64,000 nucleotides of DNA, from positions 1 through 64,000 of the forward strand of contig JALHNO010000019.1 in NCBI GenBank assembly GCA_022843465.1, given 5' to 3'. Below, piece after piece: positions 1 to 18,753 of this stretch (positions within the stretch are counted from its first letter, which is position 1; each line of letters starts with the position of its first letter). This DNA comes from Pseudomonadota bacterium (lineage in GTDB: Bacteria > Pseudomonadota > Gammaproteobacteria > Xanthomonadales > Ahniellaceae). Below the pieces are notes generated by a model, which did no database searches, had not been told where the DNA came from, and saw only the letters and a program-made list of their open reading frames with translations. The translations under genes were made by a program, and so were the position numbers.

Positions 1-2496
1 ACCAATGTCTGCAATCCGACGACTGCGGGATCGGTCTGCTCCGATGGCGAGGTCACCCCGCTGACGCTGACGCCCGTCCTGACCACGAGCAAGGTCGGTG
101 TGCTCGACAACACCGTGGTGCCACCGAGCAATCAGAGCAATCCTGGTGACACCATCGCCTATACGATCACGGTCGCCAACAGCGGCAATGGTCCAGCGAC
201 TGGCGTCAGCGTCGCCGATCCCTTGATCGGCGTGCTCAGCTGCACGATCAGTGGCGGCGGTGTCGCCCTGCCGGTCACCCTCAATGCCGGCGCCAGCCTG
301 ATCTGCACGGGCACCTACACCTTGACCGCAGGCGATGTCAGCACCGGTTCGGTCAGCAATACGGCGACCACGACCGGCACCAATGTCTGCAATCCCACCA
401 CAGCCGGTTCGGTCTGCAGCGATACCGAGGTCACGCCACTGGGCCTGGTGCCGGTACTGACCACGAGCAAGGTCGGCGTGCTCGACAACACCGTGGTGCC
501 ACCGAGCAATCAGAGCAATCCTGGTGACACCATCGCCTATACGATCACGGTCGCCAACAGCGGCAATGGTCCAGCGACTGGCGTCAGCGTCGCCGATCCC
601 TTGATCGGCGTGCTCAGCTGCACGATCAGTGGTGGCGGTGTCGCCCTGCCGGTCACCCTCAATGCCGGCGCCAGCCTGGTCTGCACGGGCACCTACACCT
701 TGACCGCAGGCGATGTCAGCACCGGTTCCGTCAGCAATACGGCGACCACAACCGGCACCAATGTCTGCAATCCCACCACAGCCGGTTCGGTCTGCAGCGA
801 TACCGAGGTCACGCCACTGGGCCTGGTGCCGGTACTGACCACGAGCAAGGTCGGTGTGCTCGACAACACCGTGGTGCCGCCGAGCAATCAGAGCAATGTC
901 GGTGACCAGATCAACTACACGATCACCGTCGCCAACAGCGGCAATGGTCCGGCAACCGGTGTCAGCGTGGCCGATCCCTTGATCGGCGTGCTCAGCTGCA
1001 CGATCAGTGGTGGCGGTGTCGCCCTGCCGGTCACCCTCAATGCCGGCGCCAGCCTGATCTGCACGGGCACCTACACACTGACCGCAGGCGATGTCAGCAC
1101 CGGTTCGGTCAGCAATACGGCGACCACAACCGGCACCAATGTCTGCAATCCGACCACAGCCGGTTCGGTCTGCAGCGATACCGAGGTCACGCCACTGGGC
1201 CTGGTGCCGGTACTGACCACCACCAAGTCCGGTGTGCTCGACAACACCGTGGTGCCGCCGAGCAATCAGAGCAATGTCGGTGACCAGATCAACTACACGA
1301 TCACCGTCGCCAACAGCGGCAATGGTCCAGCGACTGGCGTCAGCGTCGCCGATCCCTTGATCGGCGTGCTCAGCTGCACGATCAGTGGTGGCGGTGTCGC
1401 CCTGCCGGTCACCCTCAATGCCGGCGCCAGCCTGGTCTGCACGGGCACCTACACCTTGACCGCAGGCGATGTCAGCACCGGTTCGGTCAGCAATACGGCG
1501 ACCACGACCGGCACCAATGTCTGCAACCCGACCACGGCCGGTTCGGTCTGTAGCGATACCGAGGTCACGCCACTTGGGGTAGCACCAGATCTGACGGTAG
1601 ACAAGGCGCATACCGGTAACTTTACTCAGGGACAGATCGGCGCCCAGTACACGTTACTGGTCAGCAACGTCGGCAGTGCGCCCACTGCAGGCACCGTGTC
1701 GATTGCTGACACCTTGCCCGCCGGACTCACCGCAACTTCCATATCCGGAACCGGATGGTCCTGTGTGCTCGCGACCCTGACCTGTACCCGCAGCGACGTG
1801 CTCGGGGCTGGTGCAAGCTACCCGTTGATCACGCTGGTGGTGAATGTGGCCAGCAATGCGCCGCCTTCGCTCATCAATACGGCCACCGTCAGTGGTGGCG
1901 GCGACACGACACCAGGCAACAACACCGATACGGATCCAACCACGATCAGCACCATGATTCTGCCGGATCTGACGATTGCCAAGATGCACAGTGGCAGCTT
2001 CATCCGCGGCCTCCCCGGCGGCATCTACACCCTGACGGTATCCAATGTTGGCACCGCCGCCACCATGGGAACGGTGTCGGTAACCGACACCTTGCCTGCA
2101 GGACTGACCGCCACTGCCATTTCCGGCCCTGGCTGGGCGTGCACGCTGGCTACGCTGACCTGCACCCGCTCCGACATACTCGTTGTAGGCGCAAGTTATC
2201 CGTCAATCACGCTCGACGTGACGGTCGAACTCACGGCACCGGACAGCCTGATCAATACAGCGAGCGTGAGCGGAGGAGGCGACAGCGACCCGAGCAACAA
2301 CACGGACGGGGACATCACGCCGATCAGCAATGGGATACCCGGCGGCCCGGCGGTTCCGGTACCAGCAACCAGCATCTGGATGATGGTGCTGCTCACTGCC
2401 CTGATGCTGCTGCTCGCCCGGAGTGGCCTCGCGCAGGGAGTCCAGGGAGCAGGCAGGCCGGGTTCCACGGTGCATCGCCCCCGGCAGCAAATCTGA
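1..2496 (+). CDS. Repetitive DUF11-type secreted surface protein (5' end outside window)
   Basis: The reading frame is open from base 1, so the start lies upstream. From about base 100 there are four tandem copies of a 126-residue (378-bp) unit, at 100, 478, 856 and 1234. Bases 1-99 are the diverged end of a preceding copy. The copies are nearly identical in DNA. Each unit begins with a VLDNTVVPPSNQSN-like segment, contains the DUF11 signature YTITVANSGNGPATGVSV, and carries paired cysteines near its end. Two diverged DUF11-like domains follow (about 1590-2330). The C-terminus has a PVPATSIW motif, a hydrophobic stretch and basic residues, resembling an IPTL-CTERM-type sorting tail. A 30-residue extension beyond the usual Arg cluster is odd. 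It is probably exported and surface-attached; a role in adhesion is inference. The stop is followed by a hairpin. Confidence 0.85.
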   Translation, partial: TNVCNPTTAGSVCSDGEVTPLTLTPVLTTSKVGVLDNTVVPPSNQSNPGDTIAYTITVANSGNGPATGVSVADPLIGVLSCTISGGGVALPVTLNAGASLICTGTYTLTAGDVSTGSVSNTATTTGTNVCNPTTAGSVCSDTEVTPLGLVPVLTTSKVGVLDNTVVPPSNQSNPGDTIAYTITVANSGNGPATGVSVADPLIGVLSCTISGGGVALPVTLNAGASLVCTGTYTLTAGDVSTGSVSNTATTTGTNVCNPTTAGSVCSDTEVTPLGLVPVLTTSKVGVLDNTVVPPSNQSNVGDQINYTITVANSGNGPATGVSVADPLIGVLSCTISGGGVALPVTLNAGASLICTGTYTLTAGDVSTGSVSNTATTTGTNVCNPTTAGSVCSDTEVTPLGLVPVLTTTKSGVLDNTVVPPSNQSNVGDQINYTITVANSGNGPATGVSVADPLIGVLSCTISGGGVALPVTLNAGASLVCTGTYTLTAGDVSTGSVSNTATTTGTNVCNPTTAGSVCSDTEVTPLGVAPDLTVDKAHTGNFTQGQIGAQYTLLVSNVGSAPTAGTVSIADTLPAGLTATSISGTGWSCVLATLTCTRSDVLGAGASYPLITLVVNVASNAPPSLINTATVSGGGDTTPGNNTDTDPTTISTMILPDLTIAKMHSGSFIRGLPGGIYTLTVSNVGTAATMGTVSVTDTLPAGLTATAISGPGWACTLATLTCTRSDILVVGASYPSITLDVTVELTAPDSLINTASVSGGGDSDPSNNTDGDITPISNGIPGGPAVPVPATSIWMMVLLTALMLLLARSGLAQGVQGAGRPGSTVHRPRQQI

Positions 2497-2511
2497 TCAC
2501 CGGCGCAACCG

Positions 2512-2545
2512 TGGTGACCCGGTCGTAGCTCCGATCGGGTCACCA
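2512..2545 (+). terminator. Hairpin after the repeat protein
   Basis: A perfect 10-bp inverted repeat, TGGTGACCCG / CGGGTCACCA, lies 15 bases after the stop, with a 14-nt loop. No T-run follows, so it is either a weak intrinsic terminator or an mRNA-stabilising hairpin. The rest of 2546-2801 holds no recognisable gene. Confidence 0.45.
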
Positions 2546-2801
2546 GCGCAGTAGCCATGCACTGCGCGTCCTCGCGAAGTCCGGCACCGCCTGCCCTACG
2601 CGGCGGATGCGAACCCGGCCAGAATCCGACCTGCGATGCGACAATTTTCAGTGCGGGATCGAAGTATCACCGCCATGCCGAAGGCCAGCTACTTCGTTGC
2701 ACAGAGTAGTTCGCGCAGCGCGGCGCTTGCGCGCACCTCGGCGTTCCCATACTTTCGAGGAATGCCCACGCGCTGATTCAGCGACCTCCCGAGAGCTCAC
2801 C

Positions 2802-4127
2802 ATGACACAAGACAGCAGCGCGACGAATGAAGGGCTGGTGCGCGGAATCGGCACCTGGTCCCTGGGCGCCAACATCATGAATCTGGTGGTAGGAGCCGGC
2901 ATCTTTGTTCTACCCGGCATCGTCGCGGCGCAACTTGGCTCGGCGGCCATCATTGCCTACCTTGCCTGCGCGATCATCGTCGGACTGGTGTTCCTGTGCT
3001 ACGCCGAGGTCGGTGCCCGGGTCTCGCGCAGCGGCGGCAGCTATGCCTACATCGAGGAAGCCTTCGGGCCCTTCGCGGGCTTCGTTGCTTCCACCCTGCT
3101 CTGGCTGGGATGGTCGGTACTCAGTGATGCCGCCCTCGCGGTTGCGCTGACCGATGCCATTGCCGCCCAGTTCCCGGCGCTGAGCTCGGGCGCTCCGCGC
3201 GCTGCGTTTCTGATTGCATTGTTCGGCTTTCTTGCCCTGGTCAATATCGTCGGACTGAAATCGGGCGTGCGCCTGGTGCTGATCACCACGATCGCAAAAC
3301 TCGCACCGCTGCTGCTGCTGGTCGTCGTCGGTCTGTTCGCGATCGATCTCGAACATCTGAGCATCGGCCAATGGCCAAGCGTGCACAATTTCGGTGCTGC
3401 CGCACTGATTCTGTTCTTCGCCTTCGCTGGCGCCGAGACCGCCCTGAACTCAAGCGGCGAAATCCGTGACCCCGCGCGTACGGTTCCACGCGGCCTGTTG
3501 CTCGGCATGGGCGCAATCTTCGTGCTTTATGTGGCACTGCAGACAGTCGCCCAGGGTACCCTGGGCGCTGATCTGGCCAGCAATACCGAGGCACCGCTGT
3601 CCGCTGTCGCCACCCGCGTGCTGGGCGGATGGGGCGGGCAATTGCTGCTGCTGGCGATGATCGTCTCGATTTTCGGTGCGCTCAGCGGCGATGTGCTCAA
3701 CACACCGCGAGTGATCTTCTCGGCAGCCCGCGACGGCTTGCTGCCAGGCCTGTTCTCAAGGGTGCATCCCAGGTACCAGACCCCGCATCTGGCCATCCTG
3801 TTCTATGCCGCTGCGGGCTGCGCATTCGCCCTGACCGGCAGCTTCAAGCAGCTTGCCGTTGTGGCCTCGGGTGCAATCCTTCTGATCTACCTCGGAGTCA
3901 GTCTTTCCGTGCTCGTCCTGCGCCGGCGCAACCCGGCCGTGGTGAAGGGTCAATTCCGCATCCCCGCTGGCCCGCTGGTTCCCCTGCTCAGTGCGGTCGT
4001 CATCGTCTGGCTGCTGTTCCAGATGACTGCCAGCGAGGCAACCGCAACGGCTGCCCTGCTCGGCGCCACGATCGTCATTTATCTGATTCGCATGGCCATC
4101 CTCCGCAGCAGGCGCGCGCCGGTCTGA
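2802..4127 (+). CDS. APC-family amino acid permease
   Basis: A 441-residue inner-membrane transporter of the amino acid-polyamine-organocation superfamily, probably importing or exchanging an amino acid or amine. The frame is open further upstream, but ATG 2802 (MTQDSSATNEGL) places the first helix, WSLGANIMNLVVGAGIFVLPG, close to the N-terminus as is usual. The GAGIFVLPG stretch is the characteristic broken TM1 substrate-binding loop. About 12 hydrophobic segments follow, including an FAFAGAETALNSSGEIRDP stretch typical of TM6 and the loop after it. The substrate cannot be read from sequence. It converges with the kinase gene downstream, and no partner enzyme is adjacent. Confidence 0.88.
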   Translation: MTQDSSATNEGLVRGIGTWSLGANIMNLVVGAGIFVLPGIVAAQLGSAAIIAYLACAIIVGLVFLCYAEVGARVSRSGGSYAYIEEAFGPFAGFVASTLLWLGWSVLSDAALAVALTDAIAAQFPALSSGAPRAAFLIALFGFLALVNIVGLKSGVRLVLITTIAKLAPLLLLVVVGLFAIDLEHLSIGQWPSVHNFGAAALILFFAFAGAETALNSSGEIRDPARTVPRGLLLGMGAIFVLYVALQTVAQGTLGADLASNTEAPLSAVATRVLGGWGGQLLLLAMIVSIFGALSGDVLNTPRVIFSAARDGLLPGLFSRVHPRYQTPHLAILFYAAAGCAFALTGSFKQLAVVASGAILLIYLGVSLSVLVLRRRNPAVVKGQFRIPAGPLVPLLSAVVIVWLLFQMTASEATATAALLGATIVIYLIRMAILRSRRAPV

Positions 4128-4221
4128 AGTGGGTCGACGGCGCGCACCGGCTTGCGATCAGCACACGATGGGTCAGCGACTGCAGGTGCGAGCAGCCGCT
4201 GTGCGCTTGGCTGCGCCCGCC

Positions 4222-6984
4222 TCAGCCGCCAGCGGATTCAGGGTCGTCGAGATGACAGGCACCTTCCGCACGCGCTCGCAGTTCGCGGGCCGAGACCGGA
4301 TCTGCGGCTTGCTCGGATATCTCGGCCAGCGCACTCAGGATGCGCACGGTCTGGCAGGGTCGCGTCCACTTCGAGGAGCTGGCGATCTGGACGGCTTCCG
4401 CGGCGGCCATGCGCAACTCAGCGACGCGACCCGCTGCCTGCTCGGCTGACATCACCACGAACAGGGGCAGCAGTGCCTGATACAGGTTCGCAGTCCTGCC
4501 GGACCGCAGCGCGGTACGCGCATTGCGCTCCGCCTGCGTGCGCTCGCCATGCAGCCACTGCGCGTAGGCCAGTACGCCAAGTGCGGCACGACGCTGACCG
4601 GCGCCAGTTGGCGGTTCCACACGCGCATCCTCGGCACAGGCCTGAAGTTGCGCGATGGCGGCCTGCCCGTTGGCACCCAGCGAACGCGCCTCGGCGGCAA
4701 GGCAACGCAGGGAGGGGCCGGCGAAACGGGCGCTGTCAGCGAGGGCTTCGCGTTGCCCGGCGGCCTGGTCGAAGGCCGCTGCTGCGATGTCGAACGCGCC
4801 CTGTTCGAACGCGGCCTCGGCCAGATTGTCGTGAGTCGCTGCCAGCATCGGATGTGGCGCCCGCACCAGTTGCTGATGGATGTGCATGGCCTGCTCGAAT
4901 GCCTGCTGCGCCCGCGCCGGGCGGCCCAGCCGAAGCTCGGCAGTGCCCAGGGTATTGGCGACATAGGCGGCGATCACATGCGGCTCACTGGTCAAGTCGC
5001 CGAGCAGGCGCTGCGCTTCATGCAAGAGCGGCAGGGCCAGCGCCGGCGTGCCGCGCACGGTTTCACAGACCGCGAGCGCCTCGAGCGCGGAGACCACACC
5101 GATGTCGCGATCGCCATGCAGTGCCCGCGCCAGAGCGACACTCTGGATCAGCACCGGTCGCGCGCGCTCATACTGTCCATCATTGGCCAGCGCATCTCCG
5201 TAGGTTTCCAGCACCGATTGCTGCAGCGGATGGGTAGCTGGCAAAACCTTGGCGGCAAGTTGCACCGCCTCCTGATGGGTCCGCAGCGCACGCTCCATCT
5301 CGCCTCTCTGCGCATACAGCATCCCGAGCAGTGACAGTGTACGCACCCGGCCAGCGCCCGCTGCGCCATCGGCCACATCGAAATCATGCAGGGCCAGGCG
5401 CAGTCGCGTTTCGGCTTCCTTGTAGCGTCCCTGCCGGAATGCCGAGTGTGCCAGCGCCGCCTCGGCCTCCAGCCACAATGGCGCAGCAGGTCCGCCTTGC
5501 CCGAGTGCCAGCGCGGCAGCTTCTTCGAGCAGAGCACGCGCGCGATCGAGGCGGCCGAAGCTGATCTCGATGTCACCGACCACCAGCAGCAGGCGGGCAC
5601 GTGTCTCGATGTCATCGTCAAAGCGCTCACGTGCGCGCTGTTCTGCGCGTTCGAGCAGGGACTGCGGCGAGCGGCTGGCAGCACCAGGACGCAGGTCGCG
5701 CATCAGCTCGACGACAAAATCGCGCACGATCACGGCGCGCTCCGATTGCTGCTCGGCCAGCAGCGCATGCCGGCGCGCCTGCTCGGCCTGCCAGGCGAGT
5801 ACACCAAGGCTGGTGAGCAGGGCCAGCAGCAGTCCGACCGCGACCAGCACCGTGTTGCGATGGCGCTGCACGAACTTGCGAATTCGATAGCCGGCCGAAG
5901 GCGGATGTGCGAGCACGGGCATGCCGGCCAGATGACGGTCGATATCGTCGGCAAGTGCACCGGCAGTCGGATAGCGTCGCCCCGCCTCAGGCTCGAGCGC
6001 CTTGAGCATGATGTTGTCGAGATCGCCCCGGAGCCTGAGCCGAAGCGTGTCTGGCAATCCGGAGGCCAGCGCGTCTGCGGACGCCGGCGCCACTGCCGAG
6101 GGCCTGCGCAGCTCGGCCAGCGGTCGCGCGCCCAGCAGAAGTTCGTGCAGCAGCACGCCCAGCCCGTAGACATCGGTGGCAGTGGTGATCTGGCCACCGA
6201 AGAACTGTTCTGGCGCCGCATAGCCCGGCGTCAACGCACCGAGTCCGGTGCGGGTCGGATCGCCGTCTTCGTCAAGCAACTTGGCAATACCGAAGTCAAG
6301 CAGCTTGGTCTCGCCCTTCGCGGTCACCAGGATGTTCGAGGGCTTGATATCACGGTGCACGATCAGCGCATGGTGTGCGGCTTCGACGGCACGGCAGACG
6401 GTCGTGAACAGAAGCAACCGCTCGCGCAGATCGAGCCTGTGCGTGGCACAGTATTGGGTGATGGGCACACCGGCGATCAGTTCGACCGCGAGATAGGGCG
6501 TGCCGTCCTCGGCAATCCCGCCATCGATCAGTCGCGCAATATTGGGATGCGCCAGCGAGGCCAGCGCCTGCCGCTCGCGGCGAAACTGGCGTTCTTCCAT
6601 CGTCGAGAACAACAGGCGCTTGAGCACCTTGATCGCGACGCTCTGTTCGAAGTCGGCACTGATGCGTTCGGCCTCGAACACCACTGCCATGCCACCCTGC
6701 CCGATCAGCCGGATCAACCGGAACGCACCGATGGTCCGGCCCAGCCAACGTTCGCTGACGGCATCGCCCGGGCGATCGCGATCACCCTGCCGCTGGTCAT
6801 CGAGCGCCGCCAGACGCTCTCCGAGCGGGCGCAGCTCAGCTGCTCCGGAATCCGATTGTGCGTTCAGCATCATCAGCAACTGCTGACGACGTTCTGCAGC
6901 CGGCACATTCGCCGCCAGCCACGTCGCACGCGCAGCCGGCTCGACGTCCTGAAGCGCGTCGAACAATTCCCGCAGGCTACTCAT
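4222..6984 (-). CDS. Membrane Ser/Thr protein kinase with TPR-like C-terminal half
   Basis: 920 residues from ATG 6984. In-frame starts further upstream add about 100 residues of unconvincing sequence. The cytoplasmic N-terminal kinase domain lies at about 85-350, with a glycine loop (IGQGGMAVVFEAE, 94-106), catalytic Lys119 in VAIKVL, HRDIKPSN with Asp212, and DFG with Asp230; all key residues are present. A single transmembrane helix follows at about 378-398. The remaining about 500 residues are Ala/Leu-rich helical repeats, TPR-like, and would be periplasmic. This is the usual architecture of Hanks-type kinases in Xanthomonadales and Myxobacteria. Such kinases often sit next to an ECF sigma factor gene; none is seen here. 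Substrate and signal are unknown. Confidence 0.9.
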   Translation of the reverse strand: MSSLRELFDALQDVEPAARATWLAANVPAAERRQQLLMMLNAQSDSGAAELRPLGERLAALDDQRQGDRDRPGDAVSERWLGRTIGAFRLIRLIGQGGMAVVFEAERISADFEQSVAIKVLKRLLFSTMEERQFRRERQALASLAHPNIARLIDGGIAEDGTPYLAVELIAGVPITQYCATHRLDLRERLLLFTTVCRAVEAAHHALIVHRDIKPSNILVTAKGETKLLDFGIAKLLDEDGDPTRTGLGALTPGYAAPEQFFGGQITTATDVYGLGVLLHELLLGARPLAELRRPSAVAPASADALASGLPDTLRLRLRGDLDNIMLKALEPEAGRRYPTAGALADDIDRHLAGMPVLAHPPSAGYRIRKFVQRHRNTVLVAVGLLLALLTSLGVLAWQAEQARRHALLAEQQSERAVIVRDFVVELMRDLRPGAASRSPQSLLERAEQRARERFDDDIETRARLLLVVGDIEISFGRLDRARALLEEAAALALGQGGPAAPLWLEAEAALAHSAFRQGRYKEAETRLRLALHDFDVADGAAGAGRVRTLSLLGMLYAQRGEMERALRTHQEAVQLAAKVLPATHPLQQSVLETYGDALANDGQYERARPVLIQSVALARALHGDRDIGVVSALEALAVCETVRGTPALALPLLHEAQRLLGDLTSEPHVIAAYVANTLGTAELRLGRPARAQQAFEQAMHIHQQLVRAPHPMLAATHDNLAEAAFEQGAFDIAAAAFDQAAGQREALADSARFAGPSLRCLAAEARSLGANGQAAIAQLQACAEDARVEPPTGAGQRRAALGVLAYAQWLHGERTQAERNARTALRSGRTANLYQALLPLFVVMSAEQAAGRVAELRMAAAEAVQIASSSKWTRPCQTVRILSALAEISEQAADPVSARELRARAEGACHLDDPESAGG

Positions 6985-7316
6985 AAGGTGTAGGTCATGG
7001 CACAGGCCGTCGATGATGCACCGCGGAAAAGCGCTGGGCATGCCAAGCGTAGCGCATTGGTTCGAACAGACTTGGCTGACCATCGTCTGGCGAAGCGCAT
7101 AGGGCACTGGCAGGCTCTGGCAGCGCGTCGACCGCGAGCCAGCAGTTCCACCCGGTGTGCCAGGACCGCAGCGCGACCCAATCGGCGGGCGCCGGCCCGT
7201 CACGGACTTCCGCACCCGGCTGGTCTGGTGCGCGCAGCGTCCAGGGCACTTGCAGCGCGCGGCTTCAGCACGCAAGATCGGTTTCGACAGCAAACGCTAT
7301 TCCGCTGGGAGTCACC
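6985..7316. other. Divergent intergenic region between the kinase and the YciI-like gene
   Basis: 332 bases between two divergently transcribed genes, so both promoters should lie here. I see no convincing gene, repeat or clear -35/-10 pair. Confidence 0.5.
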
Positions 7317-7784
7317 ATGTGTCGATTGCTCCTGTGGCTGATCCTGTACCCGATACTGCTGATGGCCGCGCAGGCTCACAGCCAGGAAAGGCCGTCGCCC
7401 CAGTTTGATGCGGCACTCGCGGAGCAACTTGGAGCAGACGAACGTGGCATGCGCAGCTTTGTTCTGGTCGTCCTCAAGACCGGCCCCAACAAGGTGCCGG
7501 CTGGAGAGAAGCGCAGCCAGATGTTCAGGGATCATCTGGCCAACATCCAACGGTTGGCGGATGAGGGCAAACTGGTGTTTGCCGGACCCCTAGACGGAGT
7601 CGACGGATGGCGCGGCATGTTCATCCTTGCAACCGACCAGATCGCGACAGCGAAGGAACTGGTTGCTACCGACCCGGTCATCATCGAGGGCGAGATGATC
7701 GCCGAGTTCCATCAGTTGTATGGATCCGCTGCACTGATGATGCTCAACGAAATCAGCCGGAAGATTGCCAGGCCAGCGCCGTGA
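7317..7784 (+). CDS. Secreted YciI-like protein
   Basis: 155 residues from ATG 7317, preceded by a GGGAG ribosome site. An N-terminal signal peptide (MCRLLLWLILYPILLMAAQA) predicts export. The rest matches a YCII-related dimeric alpha/beta domain: a FVLVVLKTGP strand, an R-x-x-MFRDHLANIQRLADEGKLVFAGPL core with the family's conserved His, and a WRGMFIL strand. YciI domains are usually cytoplasmic and of poorly known function, so the exported form is a lineage variant worth noting. It is monocistronic and converges with the metallo-beta-lactamase-fold gene. Confidence 0.8.
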   Translation: MCRLLLWLILYPILLMAAQAHSQERPSPQFDAALAEQLGADERGMRSFVLVVLKTGPNKVPAGEKRSQMFRDHLANIQRLADEGKLVFAGPLDGVDGWRGMFILATDQIATAKELVATDPVIIEGEMIAEFHQLYGSAALMMLNEISRKIARPAP

Positions 7785-7840
7785 CGCTGCAAACCGTCAT
7801 CGTCGACCGGCAACGCATTGTGTGCTGAGCCCACAGTCGC

Positions 7841-8704: not shown

Positions 8705-8941
8705 CGTCGCGGTGCTCCCGGATTGCAAGGCTTGCCAGTGCCGCAACGGCATGGCCGGCGAATCCTGCCGGGGTCAGCTGCCCGGACGCGGGCGGGCCAA
8801 TGACCATTCTCTGGCGGATTGAAATCTGGGCGATGGGAATGCTCGAAGGCGCAGTCCGCTCCCTGCCCGACAGCACTCGACCCTGATCGCCAGCTCAGTA
8901 CACGAGCTGCGCAGTCACTGCTGTCGCCGCTGCGATTGTCC

Positions 8942-8962
8942 CGCACAGGCGCGGCCTGTGCG
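8942..8962 (-). terminator. Hairpin downstream of the response regulator gene
   Basis: A perfect 9-bp inverted repeat, CGCACAGGC-GCG-GCCTGTGCG, lies about 110 bases past the stop of the response regulator on the minus strand. It lacks a T-tract. The flanking 8705-8941 and 8963-9074 show no gene; the first part must hold the promoter of the MBL gene. Confidence 0.35.
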
Positions 8963-9587: not shown

Positions 9588-10104
9588 GACAGGCTCCTCA
9601 CAATGGGCCAAAGAAGGGGCAGCAGGTGATGGCGATGAGGATCGACGTATGCAATCACCTGTGTTGCCGTAGAGGCCAAGTTACCCGTGTCCGGCAATAC
9701 CCGATATACGTGCAAATCCCTATATCGATTCGCACGGGCAGGCTGCTGCGACCGTCACGCATTGTTACTGCACGCATCGCAGGCGCGCGCAATGCCCGCC
9801 GCATTGCGCGCAATATCCGGCAACCCGAACGACTGCATGAGCCTCGGGTTGTGCCGCCCGCGAGAGAGGCAAGGTGCCGCACTCACGGTAGTGCACCAAT
9901 GCATGCGCTTGCCGCACGGCAGGAATGTGTCGTTGACCGAGCTCAGGATTCTTACGCGGCTCAATGGCTGGCCTCTCGCGCCCTGTAAACGCTTCACGTT
10001 ACGCCTCGCGACGCACCGCGCATGACTCGGGGACAACGTGGATCGCTGCTCCTTCGCTGGCGGGGACTTACACCCCTTACGCTTCACCGGTTTCGCCGGC
10101 GCAC
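9588..10104. other. Intergenic region without a recognised gene
   Basis: 517 bases between two minus-strand genes. It contains a hairpin at 9785-9811 (listed separately) and should hold the promoter of the response regulator near 9600-9720. No convincing coding frame, RNA gene or mobile-element remnant was found. Confidence 0.5.
9785..9811 (-). terminator. Hairpin downstream of the propeller-repeat operon
   Basis: A perfect 10-bp inverted repeat, GCGCGCAATG / CATTGCGCGC, with a 7-nt loop. It is about 290 bases past the last gene of the 10105-14768 operon and has no T-run, so a terminator role is tentative. Confidence 0.3.
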
Positions 10105-12648
10105 CTACTCAAAACCATCCAGGAACAAGCCATCGGCAAGTACCGCCAGGTTTGCCTTGGCGACGTTCAACGAGGTGTGCCCGCCGGCCCGGGCGAATCG
10201 CCCCACGGCGTACAGTTCATTGCCCACCGTGAGCACCTGATCGACGCCCTGGGTGGAGCCACCGCTGAGGCCGTTTTCAGTGCCATTGCCGAGCGACTGC
10301 CAACCGCTGCCGTTCCAGCGCGCCACGCGCAAAGCAGGCTGGGTCCCCGCCTGATCGAAGTAGCCAGCGACGATGACATCGCCGGCAAGTACCGCCAGGG
10401 ATCGGCCGATCCCATTCAAGCCGTTCTCCGCGCCGGTTCCCAGCGGGAACCAGGATAGGCCGTCCCAGCGCGCCACGCGGTTGGCCACCTGTCCGCCCGC
10501 CTGGGTGAACTCTCCGGCAGCGTAGAGATGGCTGCCCGTCTGCGCCAGCGCGCGTACCGGTGCGTTGAGCCCGTTGCCTGAACCCTCACCCAGCGACGAC
10601 CAGACACCGCCATTCCAGCGCGCAATGAAGTTGGCGGACTGGCCGCCCGCCATGGTGAAAAATCCGCCTGCATACAGGTCGGCGCCCACGCCAGCCAGCG
10701 CCATCACGGAGCTGTTTACCCCATCGGATCCGGTTGACCCCAGCGACGACCAGGCACTTCCATCCCATCGAGCGACACGACTGGCTGGCTGCCCACCCGC
10801 CTGAGTGAAAAAGCCACCGACGTAGAGGTCCGTGCCAATGGTGGTCAAGGCGCGCACACCGCCATTCAATCCATTGGCCGCCGCCATCCCGAGCGGGGTC
10901 CAGTTGCTGCCATTCCAGCGCGCGACGCGATTGACCAGTTGCCCGTCTGCAAGCACAAAGTCACCGCCGACGATCAGATCACTGCCGGCGACCGCGAGCG
11001 CATAGGCGGCGTCGCTCAATCCGCTGCCCAGTGGCAACCACTCACTGCCGTTCCAGCGCGCTATGCGATTGACGTTGCCGGATCCGGCACGTAGAAAATT
11101 CCCGGCAACATACATATCGCCACCGAGGACGGCGACAGCATGGACATTGCCGTCCACACCCTGGGCTGCGCCGGTATCAAGGCCCCACCAGCTGCTCCCG
11201 TTCCAGCGGGCAATGCGACGGGCCGGCTGGGTTCCGGCGAGCGTAAAGGCGCCGCCGACATGAAGGTCGCCGGCCATCACGGCCAGCGCAAACACATCGA
11301 CATTGACGCCGTTCTGCGCGCCTGAGCCGAGCGACGACCAGGACACACCGTCCCAGCGCGCCACATGATGGGCGACGAGGCCACCAGCGTGCGTGATATA
11401 GCCACCGACGTAAAGCGTGCCGCCATCCAGGGTCATCGCATTGACGAATCCATTGATGCCATTGCCGGTGCCACTGCCAAGCGAAGACCAGCCCAAGCCA
11501 TCCCAGCGTGCAACGCGGTTGGCGGTCTGTCCGCCGGCGGACTGGAACGAGCCGCCGACGAGTAGATCGCCGCCCATCACTGCAAGCTCGCTGATGGTGG
11601 CGTCAACGCCGTTGGCGCCCCCAGCTCCGAGCGGCTGCCAGTTGCTGCCGTCCCAACGCGCGACATTGTTGGCTGTCAGCACACCCGCTTGCGTGAACGA
11701 ACCACCGACGATCAGTGCTCCTCCGTGGGGGACCAGCGCTCTGACGCCCGTGGGAACGCCGTTGGCGACTCCGTTGTTGGCCCCGATGCCAAGTGGGGAC
11801 CACGCAGAACCGTCCCAGCGCGCGATGTGATTCGCCGGCTGTCCTCCAGCCTGGTTGAAGCTGCCACCGATGAAGACATCCGTACCGATCACGGCGACTG
11901 CATGGACGCTGGGCACGCTGGTACCCGAGACTCCGTTCGCTGCTCCCGCGCCGAGCGCAGACCAGGTCGAACCATTCCAGCGTGCCACCCGATTGGCGCC
12001 TTGGCCACCGGCGATGGAGAAGCTGCCGCCAACATAGACATCGGCGCCGCTCACCGCGATCGCATAGACGGTGCCGATCACCCCGTTGTCAGGTCCTGTA
12101 CCCAGCGTCGACCAGCCGGTGCCATCCCAACGCGCGATCGAGTTGGCCGCGACATTGCCGCAGGCAGCGAAATCGCCGCCGACATAGAGTTGATTGGAGC
12201 CGGCAACAGTCAGCGCGTGGATGGTTCCACTGCAGCCGAACGGCAAGCCGCCGAATTCGTTGCTCCACACGGTGCCGACTTCCGCCCGCTTGGGTACGAA
12301 TCGCGGCCGCCCCTGCTGGTCTGTCACCAGTTCGAAGCCACTGGGATCCAGCGAACCGGAAAACCCCGCTGGCACAACGAGCAGACCGTCTGCGTCCAGA
12401 TGATCGGCTATGCCGTGGCTTGCTTGCGTCGGTACCGTGGCAACACTCAGGATCAGCATCAAAGCGCCGCAGATCCAGGCACGCAGATCTGGCAGATGCC
12501 AGTGGGATCGTCCAGCAACGAAACCCATGACCCAGCCGGGATTGATCAGAGAAATGCCGTCGTGGCTGGCATGCGCCTGCTGCGCGGGCGCGCGCAGACT
12601 GGCACATCCAGCCACCGCCAACCGGACTTTTTTTTGCGCCCTGATCAT
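10105..12648 (-). CDS. Secreted protein with 13 propeller-like ARWxGxxW repeats
   Basis: 847 residues if started at ATG 12648, which has a GGAAGA site and lies 3 bases after the stop of the upstream gene, as in translational coupling. ATG 12528 (MGFVAGRSHWH) is an alternative that puts the export signal (WICGALMLILSVATVPTQA) nearer the start. From about residue 150 there are 13 repeats of about 50 residues, each with a VARWDGSxWxxLG strand, an NG turn, and LYVGGxFTQAGGQ. The pattern suggests beta-propeller blades, enough for two propellers. The protein ends LFLDGFE, a tail resembling those of two other exported proteins in this window. Function unknown; extracellular or surface location is inferred. 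Confidence 0.8.
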   Translation of the reverse strand: MIRAQKKVRLAVAGCASLRAPAQQAHASHDGISLINPGWVMGFVAGRSHWHLPDLRAWICGALMLILSVATVPTQASHGIADHLDADGLLVVPAGFSGSLDPSGFELVTDQQGRPRFVPKRAEVGTVWSNEFGGLPFGCSGTIHALTVAGSNQLYVGGDFAACGNVAANSIARWDGTGWSTLGTGPDNGVIGTVYAIAVSGADVYVGGSFSIAGGQGANRVARWNGSTWSALGAGAANGVSGTSVPSVHAVAVIGTDVFIGGSFNQAGGQPANHIARWDGSAWSPLGIGANNGVANGVPTGVRALVPHGGALIVGGSFTQAGVLTANNVARWDGSNWQPLGAGGANGVDATISELAVMGGDLLVGGSFQSAGGQTANRVARWDGLGWSSLGSGTGNGINGFVNAMTLDGGTLYVGGYITHAGGLVAHHVARWDGVSWSSLGSGAQNGVNVDVFALAVMAGDLHVGGAFTLAGTQPARRIARWNGSSWWGLDTGAAQGVDGNVHAVAVLGGDMYVAGNFLRAGSGNVNRIARWNGSEWLPLGSGLSDAAYALAVAGSDLIVGGDFVLADGQLVNRVARWNGSNWTPLGMAAANGLNGGVRALTTIGTDLYVGGFFTQAGGQPASRVARWDGSAWSSLGSTGSDGVNSSVMALAGVGADLYAGGFFTMAGGQSANFIARWNGGVWSSLGEGSGNGLNAPVRALAQTGSHLYAAGEFTQAGGQVANRVARWDGLSWFPLGTGAENGLNGIGRSLAVLAGDVIVAGYFDQAGTQPALRVARWNGSGWQSLGNGTENGLSGGSTQGVDQVLTVGNELYAVGRFARAGGHTSLNVAKANLAVLADGLFLDGFE

Positions 12649-12651
12649 GGT

Positions 12652-12927
12652 TCAGTCTTCCAGTCCGGAGACAAAGATCCGCTCGGTGGGCAATTCTGCG
12701 CTGAGCGGCCCGGACACCGTACTGGCGCCCGGGCTGGCGGCAATGCCAACTGCACCACCGCTGCCACCGGCCAGATCGGCGCGGTGCAACGGAGAACTCG
12801 CGCGTGCAGCGACACTGACCGCGACCGGCGCGATCATCCGGTAGTTGCCGCTGGATGAGTCGGCGGACAATGCAGGAGCGACGATCAGCAGTCCGATCAG
12901 CAATGAGCTGCGCATGAACGTGCTCAT
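12652..12927 (-). CDS. Small secreted protein of unknown function
   Basis: 91 residues. ATG 12927 overlaps the TGA of the upstream gene (ATGA), and the stop is 3 bases before the next gene, so it is the middle gene of a coupled operon. A signal peptide is clear (MRSSLLIGLLIVAPALSA). The mature part is Ser/Ala/Gly-rich, with no cysteines and no recognised domain. It ends ERIFVSGLED, resembling the LFLDGFE tail of the next protein. ATG 12915 is an alternative start but lacks the coupling. Not recognised as a known family. Confidence 0.7.
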   Translation of the reverse strand: MSTFMRSSLLIGLLIVAPALSADSSSGNYRMIAPVAVSVAARASSPLHRADLAGGSGGAVGIAASPGASTVSGPLSAELPTERIFVSGLED

Positions 12928-14768
12928 GGGCAGGTCGATGCCAGAAAGCCAGTGCCGCGCCTGATATTGCCGGCGCAGGTCGCGATCAAGGCCGCGGGTG
13001 TGCAGAAATTTCCCTGCACGGTATTGCCGAGGAACTCGCCGGTCGAAGTGGCCGCAGAGGCCACGGCGCAGTTGTTGTTCGGACTGGTCGCACTGTCCAC
13101 TTGCAGGACCGATTCCTCAACGCGAACGGTGGTACCGGATTTCAGATTCACGGCAAGCGCCAGTTCATTATCCGGGCTGCGTTGCGCACGCAGGCTGGAG
13201 CGCGCGATCCGCACCACGCCACCCAGATCGGCGACCAAAGTCTGATTGCTGGCATCCTGCGGGTCGAGCGTACGCGCATCGATCTGGACATCTTCCAGCT
13301 CAAGCAGATTGGAGGATGTGCTGTATTCGATGCCCATGCAGCGGTTGTAGCTCGGCACAATGCATTCGACCTGGATCCGGCTCCGGCTGATCCTGCCCGG
13401 ATGCTCATGACGGAGACCCCAGACCGACCCCGGCGCCAGCGTGCCCTGCTGGGCGGCCCTGACCCACAGCGAGAGACCCTCGATGTCGGTGGGTTTGCTC
13501 GCCAGTCCAGGCCGATAGCGCACGCCCATCACCAACGGAGCGATCACGTCGAGCAGGCGGACCTCCAGATTGCGCACCGACAGATCGGCCGATGCCACTT
13601 CCAGTCCATGCACACCGATCGGCGCCACCGAATTGGTCGAGGGTTCATTGGCACCATCGATTTCGATCGTGGAATCGCGCAGGCTCGCATGCGAGCGGGC
13701 GATCGAATCGAAGATGCGCAGGCCGTAGGCGCTCGACGCCTCGGCGCGGGTGCGCACGCGGACCGCGATATCAGTCCAGACACCGCCGCCGCTCAGGTAG
13801 GCACCGCGCTGACCCTCGGCGCCATTGGAGGCGATAAGCAACAAGCCATTGTAGAAATTGAAATCGCCGACTGCGCAATCGGCGCGCAGACCGTAGGTGA
13901 AAGCGCCACCCTCCGACTCGCCGACGACATTGCTCAGCCGGGCACCCGTGGTGCACAGGTAGAGAGCGGGCCGCTGCCCGCCCGCCACCAGAGGTGCAGC
14001 GACGCTGCGGCCGCGGACTTCGGTCAAGGTGATCTCGCTGACCGCCATCGTGGGATCGCCGCTGGCATGCGCGGCGATGGCAATGGCCGCTGCCGAACCA
14101 CTGACCACTCCGGTGTTGGAAACCGTAAGTGCACGCAGATGCGCGTTGGACTGCATCAGCAGGGTATTGGGAAGCGCGGTCGAGGTAATCGAACTCGCCT
14201 CCATGCCGCGGCCGCTCAGGGTGACATGTGAGGGCACTGTGATCGTCGCGGCGCCCAGGTCGTAGTGTCCGGCGTCCAGTTGCACCGCAAGCGGTGCCGC
14301 CGCCGATGCCGCTGGCAGCGAAGCCAGCGCGGCAGCGAGCGCCGCGCCATTGGCCAGCGCATCGCCGTCCGCAGAAATTTCGATGGTGCGCTTCATTGTG
14401 CCCCTCGCCCGCAGCGCGTATGGCGCAGCATTCAAGCGGGGGCGCGGGGCCATCTCTGAATCGCCGGCAATCTGGATGCCAAGGAACAGTTGGGTTCCCC
14501 AGATATCCGCAGGCAGCGGCGTGACCAGGCCGAGTTCAACGGCGAAGTTGCCGCCGTCCACGGCCACACCGGTCTGGGTTTCGGTCCACAGCGCACTGCC
14601 GCCACTGACCACGTCATACAGGCGAAAGCTGATATTGAGATTGGCGGTGATCGGCTGACCGCCCGCAGTAGCGAGATTGCCCTGGTAGGCCAGAGTATTT
14701 GGTGCTGCCGCCCAGAGCGCCAGCGGCGACAGCAGCAACAGGACAATCAGGATCAGACGGCTGCGCAT
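12924..14768 (-). CDS. Secreted parallel beta-helix-like protein with tail-fibre-like N-terminal domain
   Basis: 614 residues from ATG 14768 with a GGAG site and signal peptide (ILIVLLLLSPLALWAAA). Residues 20-130 (NTLAYQGNLATAGGQPI, FRLYD, LFLGIQI, PRPRLNAAPYALRA) match a domain common at the head of secreted repeat proteins of proteobacteria, which ends in APYALRA. After a linker, HVTLSGRGMEASSI and many short strand-like repeats suggest a right-handed beta-helix of the pectate-lyase type. No catalytic residues can be assigned. It is the first gene of a three-gene operon of exported proteins. A role in the cell surface or extracellular matrix is inference. Confidence 0.75.
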   Translation of the reverse strand: MRSRLILIVLLLLSPLALWAAAPNTLAYQGNLATAGGQPITANLNISFRLYDVVSGGSALWTETQTGVAVDGGNFAVELGLVTPLPADIWGTQLFLGIQIAGDSEMAPRPRLNAAPYALRARGTMKRTIEISADGDALANGAALAAALASLPAASAAAPLAVQLDAGHYDLGAATITVPSHVTLSGRGMEASSITSTALPNTLLMQSNAHLRALTVSNTGVVSGSAAAIAIAAHASGDPTMAVSEITLTEVRGRSVAAPLVAGGQRPALYLCTTGARLSNVVGESEGGAFTYGLRADCAVGDFNFYNGLLLIASNGAEGQRGAYLSGGGVWTDIAVRVRTRAEASSAYGLRIFDSIARSHASLRDSTIEIDGANEPSTNSVAPIGVHGLEVASADLSVRNLEVRLLDVIAPLVMGVRYRPGLASKPTDIEGLSLWVRAAQQGTLAPGSVWGLRHEHPGRISRSRIQVECIVPSYNRCMGIEYSTSSNLLELEDVQIDARTLDPQDASNQTLVADLGGVVRIARSSLRAQRSPDNELALAVNLKSGTTVRVEESVLQVDSATSPNNNCAVASAATSTGEFLGNTVQGNFCTPAALIATCAGNIRRGTGFLASTCP

Positions 14769-15145
14769 GGCAAGGTCTCCTCGGGTGGACAGGACATGCG
14801 ATCTGACGGCCGGCTGCAGGATCGCTGAAGGCATCGGATGCTGTTGCAGCAAGCCTAGGCGGCCAGCAGGCGAATACTCAATGGAACCGCGCTGAAGATT
14901 TCTGAAATCTGCTGAAAGACTTGCGGATCAAGCCGATAGCGACTGAGGCGCACAGCAGTATCGGACCTGCACCGGGCATCAGCACCGCTCCGTCGGGAAG
15001 CACGCCATGGGTTTCAGCAGTGCGCAGGCACTACCGCAATCGGGTCTCCCCCGCGACTGGCCGGAGCCGTTGTGACAGGCTGCGCGCGTCAGCGGCTATC
15101 CGCGGCCGGCACGCTCGGTACTGCGCTGGAGCCGTGAAAGCGGTT
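14769..15145. other. Intergenic region upstream of the beta-helix operon
   Basis: 377 bases. It must hold the promoter of the 12924-14768 operon (minus strand). I see an AT-richer stretch near 14870-14920 but no confident -35/-10 pair and no gene. Confidence 0.4.
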
Positions 15146-15694
15146 TCAGTCGATCGCTGGCGCAGACGCCGACAACTGTCTGCTTACGCAGGCCTGGAGC
15201 CTTTCCCGGTTTCCGGCCGCAGCGGTCCACTCGACCAGGGCAAGCGACCCCACCGCATCCCAGCGCTCGGCGATTTCGTCGGGCACACAATCGGCATAGT
15301 CGAGCGCGCCGGCGCGGGTGATCACGTCATAGGCGAGGTCGCCGACGGCGTAAGGATGACGCGTGGGCCCGGTTCCCGGATCGGCAATCGGGGTGTCATC
15401 GATGAGCTTTGCGACAAGGCATTCGCGGTGGACATCGAAGTGCACGACCATCCGATCGAACTGGACGTCCAGGCCCAGCACGTTTTTCCAGGGCAGCGTC
15501 GCGATCCTGACGAGGTCTTCGCACGACCCAGGCCCGAGCGCGAGCGCACGCTGGCGTGCCGCCTGCTGGCTGTCCGGGTCATCCATCACCCTGGGTGGCG
15601 GTGGAGGCGGCGGCGGTGGCTCCGCGGCAACTCGCTCGCCTGACAACAGCAACAGGAAGATCAGACCGGCGGTAGCACTCACACGGCACTCCAT
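15146..15694 (-). CDS. Secreted hypothetical protein with polyproline linker
   Basis: 182 residues from ATG 15694 (MECRVSATAGLIFLLLLSGERVAAE), which begins with a signal peptide. In-frame starts further upstream would put charged residues before it. Directly after the signal is a run of nine prolines, then a domain with four cysteines (CEDLV, RECLV, ADCVPD, QACVS), likely paired by disulfides in the periplasm. No family recognised. It is a single gene with no clear operon partner. Confidence 0.65.
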   Translation of the reverse strand: MECRVSATAGLIFLLLLSGERVAAEPPPPPPPPPRVMDDPDSQQAARQRALALGPGSCEDLVRIATLPWKNVLGLDVQFDRMVVHFDVHRECLVAKLIDDTPIADPGTGPTRHPYAVGDLAYDVITRAGALDYADCVPDEIAERWDAVGSLALVEWTAAAGNRERLQACVSRQLSASAPAID

Positions 15695-16252
15695 CTCATT
15701 GGCCCGCGCGCGCAGGCGAATCGCTTCCACGCGAATGATGCACTCCGCTCTGACCGGGCGCTACCTCAGTCGGCACCGGGGCCAGACACGGCGCGCGGCT
15801 GCGGGCCGAGCCTTGCCGGCTGTCCACTAAGCCGCCCTCCCCGCATCAGGCCACCGCCCAGCTTGCCGGACGTGGTCTTGCACCTTGGTCCGCATCTGGG
15901 GTCACCAGCGGTTATCCCGATGCCAGGATACTCAACAAGCGAACCGCCGGTATGCTGACATCGAACCGGAAGCGGAATTTCATCGTCCCGCGCATCCCCC
16001 ACTGTGCTCGAGGAATCCTGCTGTTCGCCTTCGAGACTCAGTATCGTTCGCAGAAGTTCGCCCGGCGGGGCAACCGCTCAGGCCGCGTTTCGGCAGCCTG
16101 CATTGTTGCGCCCATCGGCTGCAGTGCGGCTCGGGCAGAACCTGCCGAGCGCAGGCTCTCGCCAGACCATCCCCAATCCCGTTCGCTTTGACAGCCATCG
16201 AGTTCGCCAATGCTCCAATCAAGACGCGACGGCCGGATCAGAAAATCCGGGG
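15695..16252. other. Intergenic region, nothing recognised
   Basis: 558 bases between two minus-strand genes. Short frames exist on both strands, but none has a ribosome site, codon pattern or domain that supports a gene. Confidence 0.45.
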
Positions 16253-17503
16253 TCATTCGGCCAACTCCCTTTTGGCCTCGTTGTTCCGGGTAGCTTGCAA
16301 CCCAAGCTCTGCGGTACGGGCCGCCAGTTCTGCCGAAATCACTCCGATGCAGGCTTCCACCAGCGTCCGCAGTGAGTCCCTTGAAATCGTGTCGATACGC
16401 GTGCCACCCACCGAATTGGTGAGAAACGCCATACAGTTTTCGGTGGTGTAGGTCTTTTTGAGCACGGCCGCCACCATGCCACTGACCGCCTGCGCTACTT
16501 CCTTCGTCGCCGCTGCCGAAAGCGGCGGTCGCTGGCTGACGACACCGACTTGACCACTGCCATACACATTGGCGGATGCGGTGGTCAGCGAGGAGTCACG
16601 CTGGGCTTCGATGGCCTCGCGGTTCTCGGTGGCATCGGCCAGGGCCTGCTTCGCCGCGGTCAGCTTTCCTGCTGCGGATTGGGCGTTGGCATTGGCCTCG
16701 GCGACTCCGGGTTCGAGCGCATCGGCTGCGGCCTTGGCTTCGGCCTTCTCAGCAGGCGTTGCCGTTGCCGAGTTTGCCACCGTGGTCTCGTGGTCGCGGG
16801 CAGCCTTGAGCGCACTCGCCTTCTCGATGACCAGGGCTTGGGCCTCGGCATCCGCGGCAACCGCTGCGTCGAGGGCCTTCTTGGCTGCTGCCTCGTTCTG
16901 TCTTGCCTGTTCCAGCATCTGCTGATTGCTGAGCAGCAGTGCCGACGAACTGGCACTGCCACCACCGGTGAGCACGACCGGACTGGCCGCAACCGCACCG
17001 GTCAATTGCTCGATGGCCAGCACCACGGCGATCAGGTCCTGGCTGCGGGTCAAAAAGGTCGCCGCGTCCGAAGCACTGATCGCCTTGTTGGCCTGTGCCT
17101 CACACATGCGATAGAGCGCATCGCGCATCAGCGTGATCGATTGGGTACGCAGACCGAGACTGCCGGCATTGCTCTGCAGGGCCGCAGCCGCCGAGGCTGA
17201 GTTCCTGTTGGCGCCGGTGAGCCCAAAACCCAGGGCCGAGGCATAGGAGGCCAATGCATCAGGACTCGGCTCCGCACAGTATTTCTCGCCGGTCATGATC
17301 ACCAACCGCTGCTGGGCGTCCAGATGGACAGCCTTTGCAGCGCCCTCGCTCTGGGAAAAATCAGTGCTTCGGCCGATGGTCTGAAGATTGGCGCAGCCGG
17401 CGACAACACAGAGTGCCGCCAGGGCGATCATCAGGCGCAACGGGCCGGACCATCGACCGGATGTGCGTTCGGGAGCAGCGGCTGCAGCGTGGAAGGTGTT
17501 CAT
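16253..17503 (-). CDS. Lipoprotein with Ala-rich coiled coil
   Basis: 416 residues from ATG 17503 behind a GAGGA site. A lipobox (VVAGC, Cys37) after a hydrophobic segment predicts a lipid-anchored periplasmic or outer-membrane protein. Residues about 195-310 are Ala/Glu/Lys-rich heptad-like sequence, probably a long coiled coil, flanked by helical N- and C-terminal parts with several cysteines (EKYC, YRMC, TENC, EACIG). No family recognised. The 36-residue pre-lipobox segment is longer than normal; an internal start could be true, but the only ribosome site found is at 17503. Confidence 0.75.
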   Translation of the reverse strand: MNTFHAAAAAPERTSGRWSGPLRLMIALAALCVVAGCANLQTIGRSTDFSQSEGAAKAVHLDAQQRLVIMTGEKYCAEPSPDALASYASALGFGLTGANRNSASAAAALQSNAGSLGLRTQSITLMRDALYRMCEAQANKAISASDAATFLTRSQDLIAVVLAIEQLTGAVAASPVVLTGGGSASSSALLLSNQQMLEQARQNEAAAKKALDAAVAADAEAQALVIEKASALKAARDHETTVANSATATPAEKAEAKAAADALEPGVAEANANAQSAAGKLTAAKQALADATENREAIEAQRDSSLTTASANVYGSGQVGVVSQRPPLSAAATKEVAQAVSGMVAAVLKKTYTTENCMAFLTNSVGGTRIDTISRDSLRTLVEACIGVISAELAARTAELGLQATRNNEAKRELAE

Positions 17504-17874
17504 CGGCGTTCCTCGTGTGGGCGATGGCGCCACGTCGCCGCACTCTGCAGGGCAGGTCGGATCGCGTAGTGCTGACCCGACGATGCAAAGACCCCGGCGA
17601 AGTTGCGGTGGTGCGTGTCGTTGCCACTGAAGAGGAGGCAGGAACCGAAACGTCTCAGCGCCGGCATTCAGTCGCCGACGATCAGGACACGATCATGCCC
17701 GCGGCCATGCCGGTAGTTATCGGGCGCAGGTTTCTGGCCCGCGTGAACCGGGGACCGCAGGCTGCCGCACCCCGGCGCAGCGCAGCACTGGCACTGGCAC
17801 TTGCACGGGCAGCCAGAGGGTGTCGCCGGCCTGCGCGCGGACGCGACGTCACGTGATGAAGGCCCCGACGACGC
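17504..17874. other. Intergenic region upstream of the lipoprotein
   Basis: 371 bases between the lipoprotein start and the terminator of the next gene. It should hold the lipoprotein promoter. No gene or repeat was recognised. Confidence 0.4.
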
Positions 17875-17903
17875 CAAAGAAAAGGGCCGCAGTGCGGCCC
17901 TTT
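17875..17903 (-). terminator. Rho-independent terminator of the CTERM protein gene
   Basis: A perfect 10-bp stem AAAGGGCCGC / GCGGCCCTTT with a 3-nt loop lies 23 bases after the stop. On the minus strand it is followed by a T-rich run (TTTTCTTT), so it is a good intrinsic terminator for the gene at 17926-18753. Confidence 0.8.
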
Positions 17904-17925
17904 CCGTCCCCAGCGCGGCAGCGGA

Positions 17926-18753
17926 TCAGGCGATTGCGCGGCGCACCGAGACAACGCCGATCAGACCCAGCATCAGGCCAGCCAGCACCAGCGCCCAGCT
18001 GTTCGAAGCCGGAACCGGCCGCGGCGGTCCCAGCGGAGCAGAACAGACGCCGTCGATGGCGAAGGAGAACGCCAGCGGATTGCCGCCGATTACCGCCTCC
18101 GCCGCGGTCCAGTCGGCCACTCCGGCACCCGGCGCGATGATCACGCCATTGTCCGTGGAACCGCTGGCACCCGCCGATGCCGCGAAAAAGTTGTTGAACC
18201 CGGCGGCATTGGCGGCGGCATTGGTCCCATAGCCGGAAAGCCAGAACCGCGTATCGGCCGCCACGCTCAGCCCGGTCGGGATGAATGTTGCTTCGATGAT
18301 CGATGTGCCAGCACCAAAGGCGCCCAGGGTTGTCTGTGCTGACTGGGCCACCGTCGCGATCGGATTGATCCCGGAAACTGGCGCCGTGTTGCTGCCGTTG
18401 TCCGCAAAGAGGTCCACGGCAAAGGCCTGCGGTGCCGCGTCAGCCTGCACCATCTGGACGCGGATCTGAGTGATATCGAAGTTGCCCGTTCCGCAGCCGG
18501 TGCCCGCGAGTATGAAATCGTCCGCGGTGCGGGCGGTCAAGGTGCCCGAGCTGTCCTGCGATGCCAGCGAAGTGGTGCCATCGCTCTGCTCATTGTCGTA
18601 CAGGCTGCCCGCCGGTACGTACGGTCCGCCAGCGGGAATGCCGTCTGGTGTCACCGTACGGAGCTGCTGAAAACTGCTCTGCTGAGCCATGGCGCTGCCG
18701 GCAGAAAGTGCAAGTACAAGAAGGGTGCAACGGGTTCGTGCAGGAAAGCGCAT
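17926..18753 (-). CDS. Exported protein with IPTL-CTERM-like sorting tail
   Basis: 275 residues. ATG 18753 has a GGAG site at ideal spacing; ATG 18759 is too close to it. A signal peptide (LLVLALSAGSAMAQ) is followed by a beta-rich body of unknown fold that contains one closely spaced cysteine pair (GTGCGTGN begins it). The C-terminus is PRPVPASNSWALVLAGLMLG followed by a short hydrophobic stretch and RRAIA: a proline-containing motif with Trp, a helix and a basic end. This is the layout of IPTL/PEP-CTERM proteins processed by exosortase-like enzymes. The tail matches that of the repeat protein at 1-2496. Function of the body is unknown. Confidence 0.75.
   Translation of the reverse strand: MRFPARTRCTLLVLALSAGSAMAQQSSFQQLRTVTPDGIPAGGPYVPAGSLYDNEQSDGTTSLASQDSSGTLTARTADDFILAGTGCGTGNFDITQIRVQMVQADAAPQAFAVDLFADNGSNTAPVSGINPIATVAQSAQTTLGAFGAGTSIIEATFIPTGLSVAADTRFWLSGYGTNAAANAAGFNNFFAASAGASGSTDNGVIIAPGAGVADWTAAEAVIGGNPLAFSFAIDGVCSAPLGPPRPVPASNSWALVLAGLMLGLIGVVSVRRAIA

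Follow-up and report, generated by a model that had tools for sequence, protein, structure and literature searches.

PVPA tails as probable sorting signals of the exosortase H/IPTL-CTERM type in a Pseudomonadota bacterium

Two proteins with PVPA tails in the window

We analysed the first 64,000 nucleotides of a contig (bases 1-64000 of contig C19, hereafter the window) from a Pseudomonadota bacterium whose assembly comprises 5.18 Mb in 45 contigs. Two predicted proteins of the window end in C-terminal tails that contain the motif PVPA and resemble IPTL-CTERM, a sorting signal of the exosortase H (XrtH) system. The first tail belongs to a DUF11/DUF7507 repeat protein (1..2496, plus strand; Pfam DUF7507, 2.4e-68; DUF11, 1.3e-49), of which only the 3' part of the gene is present because the contig starts inside it. 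The protein ends in ...GGPAVPVPATSIWMMVLLTALMLLLARSGLAQGVQGAGRPGSTVHRPRQQI, and its tail (tail 1; 2356..2493, plus strand) opens with PVPATSIW at position 2356, followed by a hydrophobic helix and a weak basic end. The second tail is carried by a putative secreted protein (17926..18753, minus strand, within an open reading frame (ORF) spanning 17926-18822), with a probable ATG at 18753, a GGAG six bases upstream and the signal-peptide-like start MRFPARTRCTLLVLALSAGSAMA; no Pfam match above cut-off was obtained for this protein. Its C-terminus reads ...GPPRPVPASNSWALVLAGLMLGLIGVVSVRRAIA, and its tail (tail 2; 17929..18018, minus strand) shows the complete three-part form, with PVPASNSW beginning at 18018, a hydrophobic helix, and a basic end with RR near the terminus.

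The consensus of IPTL-CTERM is IPTLxxW. Both window tails follow [IV]P-x-x-x-x-W, with W at position 7 as in the consensus, and both match IPTL-CTERM (TIGR04174) weakly at the right place. Tail 2 shows the tripartite layout of motif, helix and basic end in full, tail 1 with a helix but a weak basic end. Where the consensus has T-L at positions 3 and 4, the window tails have A followed by S or T, and tail 1 also carries residues past the helix.

Thirteen tails from other parts of the genome, without either window tail, were made into a leave-out profile, with which we scored the C-terminal 60 residues of each of the 616 window ORFs of at least 60 codons. The best score of the 616 belonged to tail 2 (26.3 bits) and the next to tail 1 (16.2 bits), and the third-best C-terminus scored 7.4 bits. 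None of 30,800 shuffled window C-termini attained 16.2 bits; shuffled versions of tail 1 attained the score of tail 1 once in 5,000 shuffles, and those of tail 2 never attained the score of tail 2 in as many. Tail 2 also remained first when whole proteins were scored with composition correction. The initial annotation had proposed that the two proteins share one type of tail, and these ranks bear it out. From the sequence we regard tail 2 as secure and tail 1 as probable, the latter becoming firmer through the genome context.

A similar DUF11-repeat gene, with a signal peptide, runs off the end of another contig (base 1 of C30; locus L369). The overlap between that contig end and the start of the window is only nine bases, and the two repeat genes may represent a single gene that its own repeats have split.

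Exosortase H and further tails in the genome

The genome holds a single XrtH gene (contig C2, 220933-221436), which scored 172.8 bits against TIGR04177 (cut-off 86 bits; 173.8 bits for the translated gene) and matched positions 1-157 of the 158 in the model. Three residues, C72, R113 and H143, are invariant in 36 XrtH sequences and are all present in this protein; score and Cys, Arg and His together place it in the TIGR04177 family. A search of the genome with PF09721 returned nothing above cut-off and two matches below it. Among named records, the nearest relatives of the enzyme came from uncultured Lysobacterales, in a search from which the records of the source genome were possibly excluded; the same search also listed XrtH in cultivable relatives such as Dokdonella fugitiva and Wenzhouxiangella sediminis. 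Sequence searches of the PDB with XrtH gave no meaningful match, nor did a fold search with a model of XrtH (best E-value 1.6). The gene lies near aroK- and aroB-like genes and overlaps an epimerase-like gene, names that come from reading the translations.

With the public IPTL_CTERM model (TIGR04174, curated cut-off 20.5 bits), we obtained 16 matches in the genome up to E = 10, of which 14 were judged to be real tails. A second profile, A1, was built from 15 tail sequences of this genome, including both window tails; the E-values that it gives to its own training tails are not independent, because it was built from them. It found 20 matches at E ≤ 0.001 and 27 up to E = 10, and 24 were accepted by inspection. 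An ORF of 52 amino acids (L060) and an internal match (L062) were not accepted, and a very long ORF (L061) also stands outside the 24. The initial annotation had made its suggestion depend on further tails and a sortase-like gene elsewhere in the genome; the searches returned about 24 tails and the XrtH gene described above, and so did not refute it.

The accepted tails include the forms IPTL, VPTL, VPTM, VPAL, VPAS and VPVL. Position 3 is T in 10 of the 24, A in 9, V in 3, and G and S in one each; W stands at position 7 in 7/24 and the full VPAxxxW form occurs in 3/24. The [IV]P motif is retained across carriers with unrelated bodies, which among those scanned with Pfam include DUF11 proteins, P-domain proteins, an ice-binding-like protein and at least eight proteins with no Pfam match. 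A signal-peptide-like start was present in 21 of the 23 testable tail ORFs by a simple rule that allowed internal starts, and in one more by eye; one tail ORF, on contig C5, had no convincing start of this kind. Two large proteins adjoin at locus L021 (5692-9681 and 9743-14017, minus strand) and have identical VPTMSTL tails, with the last 75 residues identical; they are perhaps a tandem duplication.

Relatives of the body of the 17926 protein were found in 2 of 100 other genomes, at 63% and 62% identity. One of them ends in PVSANTPWALWSLMGLLALAGVLVVRRQTA; the other, from G049, carries two DUF11 domains (141.8 bits) between body and tail and ends in VPMLGQLGMLLLGLILAGAAVVVIRR. Three tails that differ between three genomes on the same kind of body are what a portable sorting suffix would be expected to produce.

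The distribution of enzyme and tails was compared in 41 genomes, comprising this one and 40 relatives. XrtH was found in 35 of them. Tails detected with the public model at E ≤ 0.05 were present in 35/35 genomes with XrtH and in 0/6 without it (Fisher's exact test, 2.2e-7, with kinship ignored). Profile A1 at E ≤ 0.001 found tails in 34 of the 35 (G024 was missed) and again in none of the six. Four of the genomes that have neither enzyme nor tails belong to one family (f2) and one each to two others (f8 and f12), and the other f8 and f12 members among the 41 have both. In a wider draw from the order, XrtH occurred in 145 of 250 genomes.

Taken together, these results suggest, with a probability that we put at about 0.88, that each of the two window proteins carries in its tail a sorting signal of the XrtH/IPTL-CTERM type. 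The assignment to an IPTL-CTERM/exosortase class made in the initial annotation is upheld by the single XrtH, the roughly 24 tails and the co-occurrence of 35/35 versus 0/6, with processing itself suggested by analogy. Both isolated tails fall short of the IPTL_CTERM cut-off by about 1 bit and are consequently not filed as members by that model, but they probably function as IPTL-CTERM tails do and form a continuous range with the tails that pass. The PVPA form is a divergent end of the IPTL-CTERM range and not a separate new signal, and the system as a whole departs only slightly from a type of protein sorting already known in bacteria.

Variation of enzyme and motif, and a second C-terminal signature

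Compared with TIGR04177, XrtH of this genome differs in an insert of exactly 11 residues containing two cysteines (C-V-x-G-x-x-C), which is shared with XrtH of six relatives (G001 and G005-G009). The seven insert-bearing genes lie at locus L001/L020 (9924-10484; contig C2) in this genome and at loci L281-L286 in the others. The insert separates two helices, the first carrying the invariant Arg and the second the invariant His, and lengthens the spacing from the CNG to the FH motif to 70, versus 59 in the 100 other parsed rows, which include some duplicates; five loci could not be parsed (L084, L294, L316, L352 and L356). Across the order, seven of the 145 genomes with XrtH carry it, as called from match lengths read by eye (492-504 bases versus ≤471), and all seven belong to the family of this genome and to three genera. 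A model of the L281 protein, with a mean predicted local distance difference test (pLDDT) score of 91.8, places the insert in a turn between helices 92-127 and 137-164, and a disulfide between the two cysteines is possible.

In a tree of XrtH sequences the insert-bearing rows did not form one clade, and G004, which lacks the insert, grouped with the insert-bearing G005 and G007 (support 100/96). The alignment was trimmed from 178 to 165 columns by removing those filled in fewer than 30% of rows, and the columns of the insert (filled in 7 of 104 rows) were lost with them; four known duplicates were omitted, and the tree carries a long-branch warning. A single origin of the insert was rejected, as the tree requires three changes among the rows of family f1. 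Either gain plus loss or repeated gain may account for its history.

The initial annotation had suggested that the PVPA motif may be a lineage-specific variant, and an extension of this idea is that the motif is a signal matched to the changed XrtH. We examined it with tails of the relatives (149 extracted tails from 34 genomes). The set comprises 126 of the 141 public-model matches outside our genome (36/36 within its family, 90/105 outside) and 23 further family tails from the A1 matches listed. Five of the 149 rows, from G002, G005, G007, G016 and G031, were dropped for want of [IVL]P in range, and some rows that the script rule placed off register (such as VPWALGLLA, LPGLLLLAL and VPGPGAGGL) are counted unchanged. 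The following comparison uses public-model tails, those outside the family numbering 88 from 25 genomes. Position 3 is A in 14/88 tails outside the family, in 4/10 from family members without the insert and in 10/23 from those with it; the corresponding figures for T are 47/88, 4/10 and 5/23, and for W at position 7 they are 30/88, 6/10 and 3/23. Fisher's exact test of insert-bearing genomes against those outside the family gave 0.009 for T and for A and 0.07 for W, values on the optimistic side, since the kinship of the tails was ignored.

Greater frequency of A where XrtH carries the insert is what a lineage-specific signal would lead one to expect, and to this extent the suggestion is partly right. 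A separate motif is not supported. A also occurs at position 3 outside the family, where [IV]P tails with T, A, V, S or G are all found, and in family members without the insert; W is rarer with the insert; our own genome has nearly as many A as T tails, with few of the full VPAxxxW form; and the insert-bearing enzymes are not one clade. Given the many position-3 forms both within the genome and outside the family, a clean lineage-specific motif was rejected on the counts, and a PVPA signal matched to a changed XrtH is unlikely. Because of the position-3 and W counts inside and outside the family, the shift towards A appears to be drift and not a private motif, and it is modest and confounded by kinship. 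A bolder proposal is that in this family of Lysobacterales an XrtH variant gained a disulfide-capable loop beside the probably catalytic His while its substrates drifted from IPTLxxW to [IV]PA or [IV]PV, often without W, as a natural change of exosortase specificity across sister genera; this we hold to be unlikely. Insert and tail drift may be coupled.

A second C-terminal signature, F-x-[DN]-G-F-E, was present in the window. One ORF (10105-12648, minus strand) ends in LFLDGFE and fits it exactly, and two others have similar ends, LLRDGFE (33952-35091, minus strand) and RIFVSGLED (12652-12927, minus strand). The strict DNA pattern followed by a TAA or TGA stop matched 35 times in the genome, and the reversed pattern did not match. 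In the 377 kb of the window and the stretches around tails, F-x-[DNS]-G-F-E occurred eight times at a C-terminus and never inside an ORF. The pattern was found in 27 of the 41 genomes, all with XrtH, and was absent from eight genomes with XrtH and from all six without. Among 31 signature ORFs that were read, 23 had a signal-peptide-like start and 30 lacked any stretch resembling a membrane helix within their final 50 residues. No above-cut-off match in scans with NCBIfam (seven proteins) and Pfam (eight proteins) extended into the last five residues; a match of the window protein to EpsI_fam (12.2 bits, below the cut-off of 42.8) stops four residues short of its end. The signature is unrelated to the PVPA tails and might act in export or sorting as a signal of its own.

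Assignment of the tails and a proposed mechanism

Several observations weigh against assigning the window tails to XrtH. Neither reaches the IPTL_CTERM cut-off, with 19.9 bits for isolated tail 2 (14.6 in the whole protein) and 19.2 bits for isolated tail 1 (14.3), and only three tails of the entire genome pass it. The basic part of tail 1 is poor, consisting of a single R past the helix before about 24 extra residues; support for this tail is weaker because its score for the whole protein with composition correction (3.5 bits, seventh) sinks into the noise. The start of the contig also deprives the repeat protein of its N-terminus, including the region of any signal peptide. XrtH and the window are on different contigs, no gene for a tailed protein was seen next to XrtH in the region that was read, and G049, a draft genome 80% complete, has a tailed homologue of the 17926 protein and no XrtH match. 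Isolated tail 2, moreover, exceeds the cut-off of LPXTG_anchor (TIGR01167; 16.9 versus 15.9 bits), and an LPXTG motif is present in neither window tail; the searches did not extend to a true sortase gene. That match covers profile positions 9-31, that is, the helix and basic part without the LPXTG motif; the whole 17926 protein scored below the cut-off. Gram_pos_anchor gave 12.2 bits (cut-off 20), and PEP_CTERM on tail 2 gave 13.3 bits (cut-off 16).

The tails might instead be plain C-terminal membrane anchors, in which a single helix with stop-transfer charges is left unprocessed and the likeness of the motif is due to descent or chance. A helix with basic residues is common to any C-terminal anchor, the generic LPXTG_anchor model matches isolated tail 2 through just these parts, and tail 1 lacks a clean basic cluster. 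However, plain anchors should be independent of XrtH, whereas none of the six genomes without the enzyme has tails, and the [IV]P motif is retained on unrelated bodies; we therefore consider this explanation quite improbable. It is extremely unlikely that the PVPA tails are substrates of a different enzyme, whether an exosortase of the VPLPA-CTERM or PEP-CTERM kind or a true sortase (to which the searches did not extend), since XrtH is the only exosortase among those searched for, PEP_CTERM stays below cut-off on tail 2 and the LPXTG motif is missing, despite a slightly VPLPA-like motif, a weak VPLPA-CTERM score of one other tail in the genome (12.7 bits versus a cut-off of 25.35) and the LPXTG_anchor score of isolated tail 2.

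If the tails are signals for XrtH, a tailed protein would be exported by Sec via its signal peptide, and the hydrophobic segment of the tail would halt in the inner membrane, leaving the basic end on the inner side. The helical membrane protein XrtH, with its invariant Cys, Arg and His, would most likely then cut at or near [IV]P and probably hand the protein over to a membrane or surface anchor. The steps after export, namely cleavage, transfer and surface location, are proposed here from the exosortase/archaeosortase literature. Two papers (PMC11980579, PMC3237569) describe for sortase-like systems how Sec exports the protein, the tail helix arrests it and a membrane cysteine enzyme cuts it near the motif, probably followed by transfer to an anchor that stays at the surface. 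The pairs PEP-CTERM/EpsH, PGF-CTERM/ArtA and GlyGly-CTERM/rhombosortase, as covered in the same papers, resemble the present system in three-part layout and in the logic of enzyme-tail co-occurrence, but differ in motifs and enzymes. In a literature search no paper treating IPTL and exosortase together was found, and IPTL-CTERM was not among the matches listed.

Another known relative is midcut-by-XrtH (NF033207), which matched weakly over the tail region, with a best score in this genome of 20.9 bits against a cut-off of 45. In some tail proteins of the relatives (L162, L165, L173, L175, L211, L213, L235, L241 and L255), the open frame continues past the tail helix, as in midcut-by-XrtH proteins.

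The curated model passes only 3 of about 24 tails, and therefore the surface proteins of uncultured Lysobacterales like this one are probably under-annotated; a lineage profile together with the XrtH gene recovers tails that this model misses. If the insert in XrtH changes specificity, sister genera with and without it would constitute a natural experiment on how an exosortase reads its signal.

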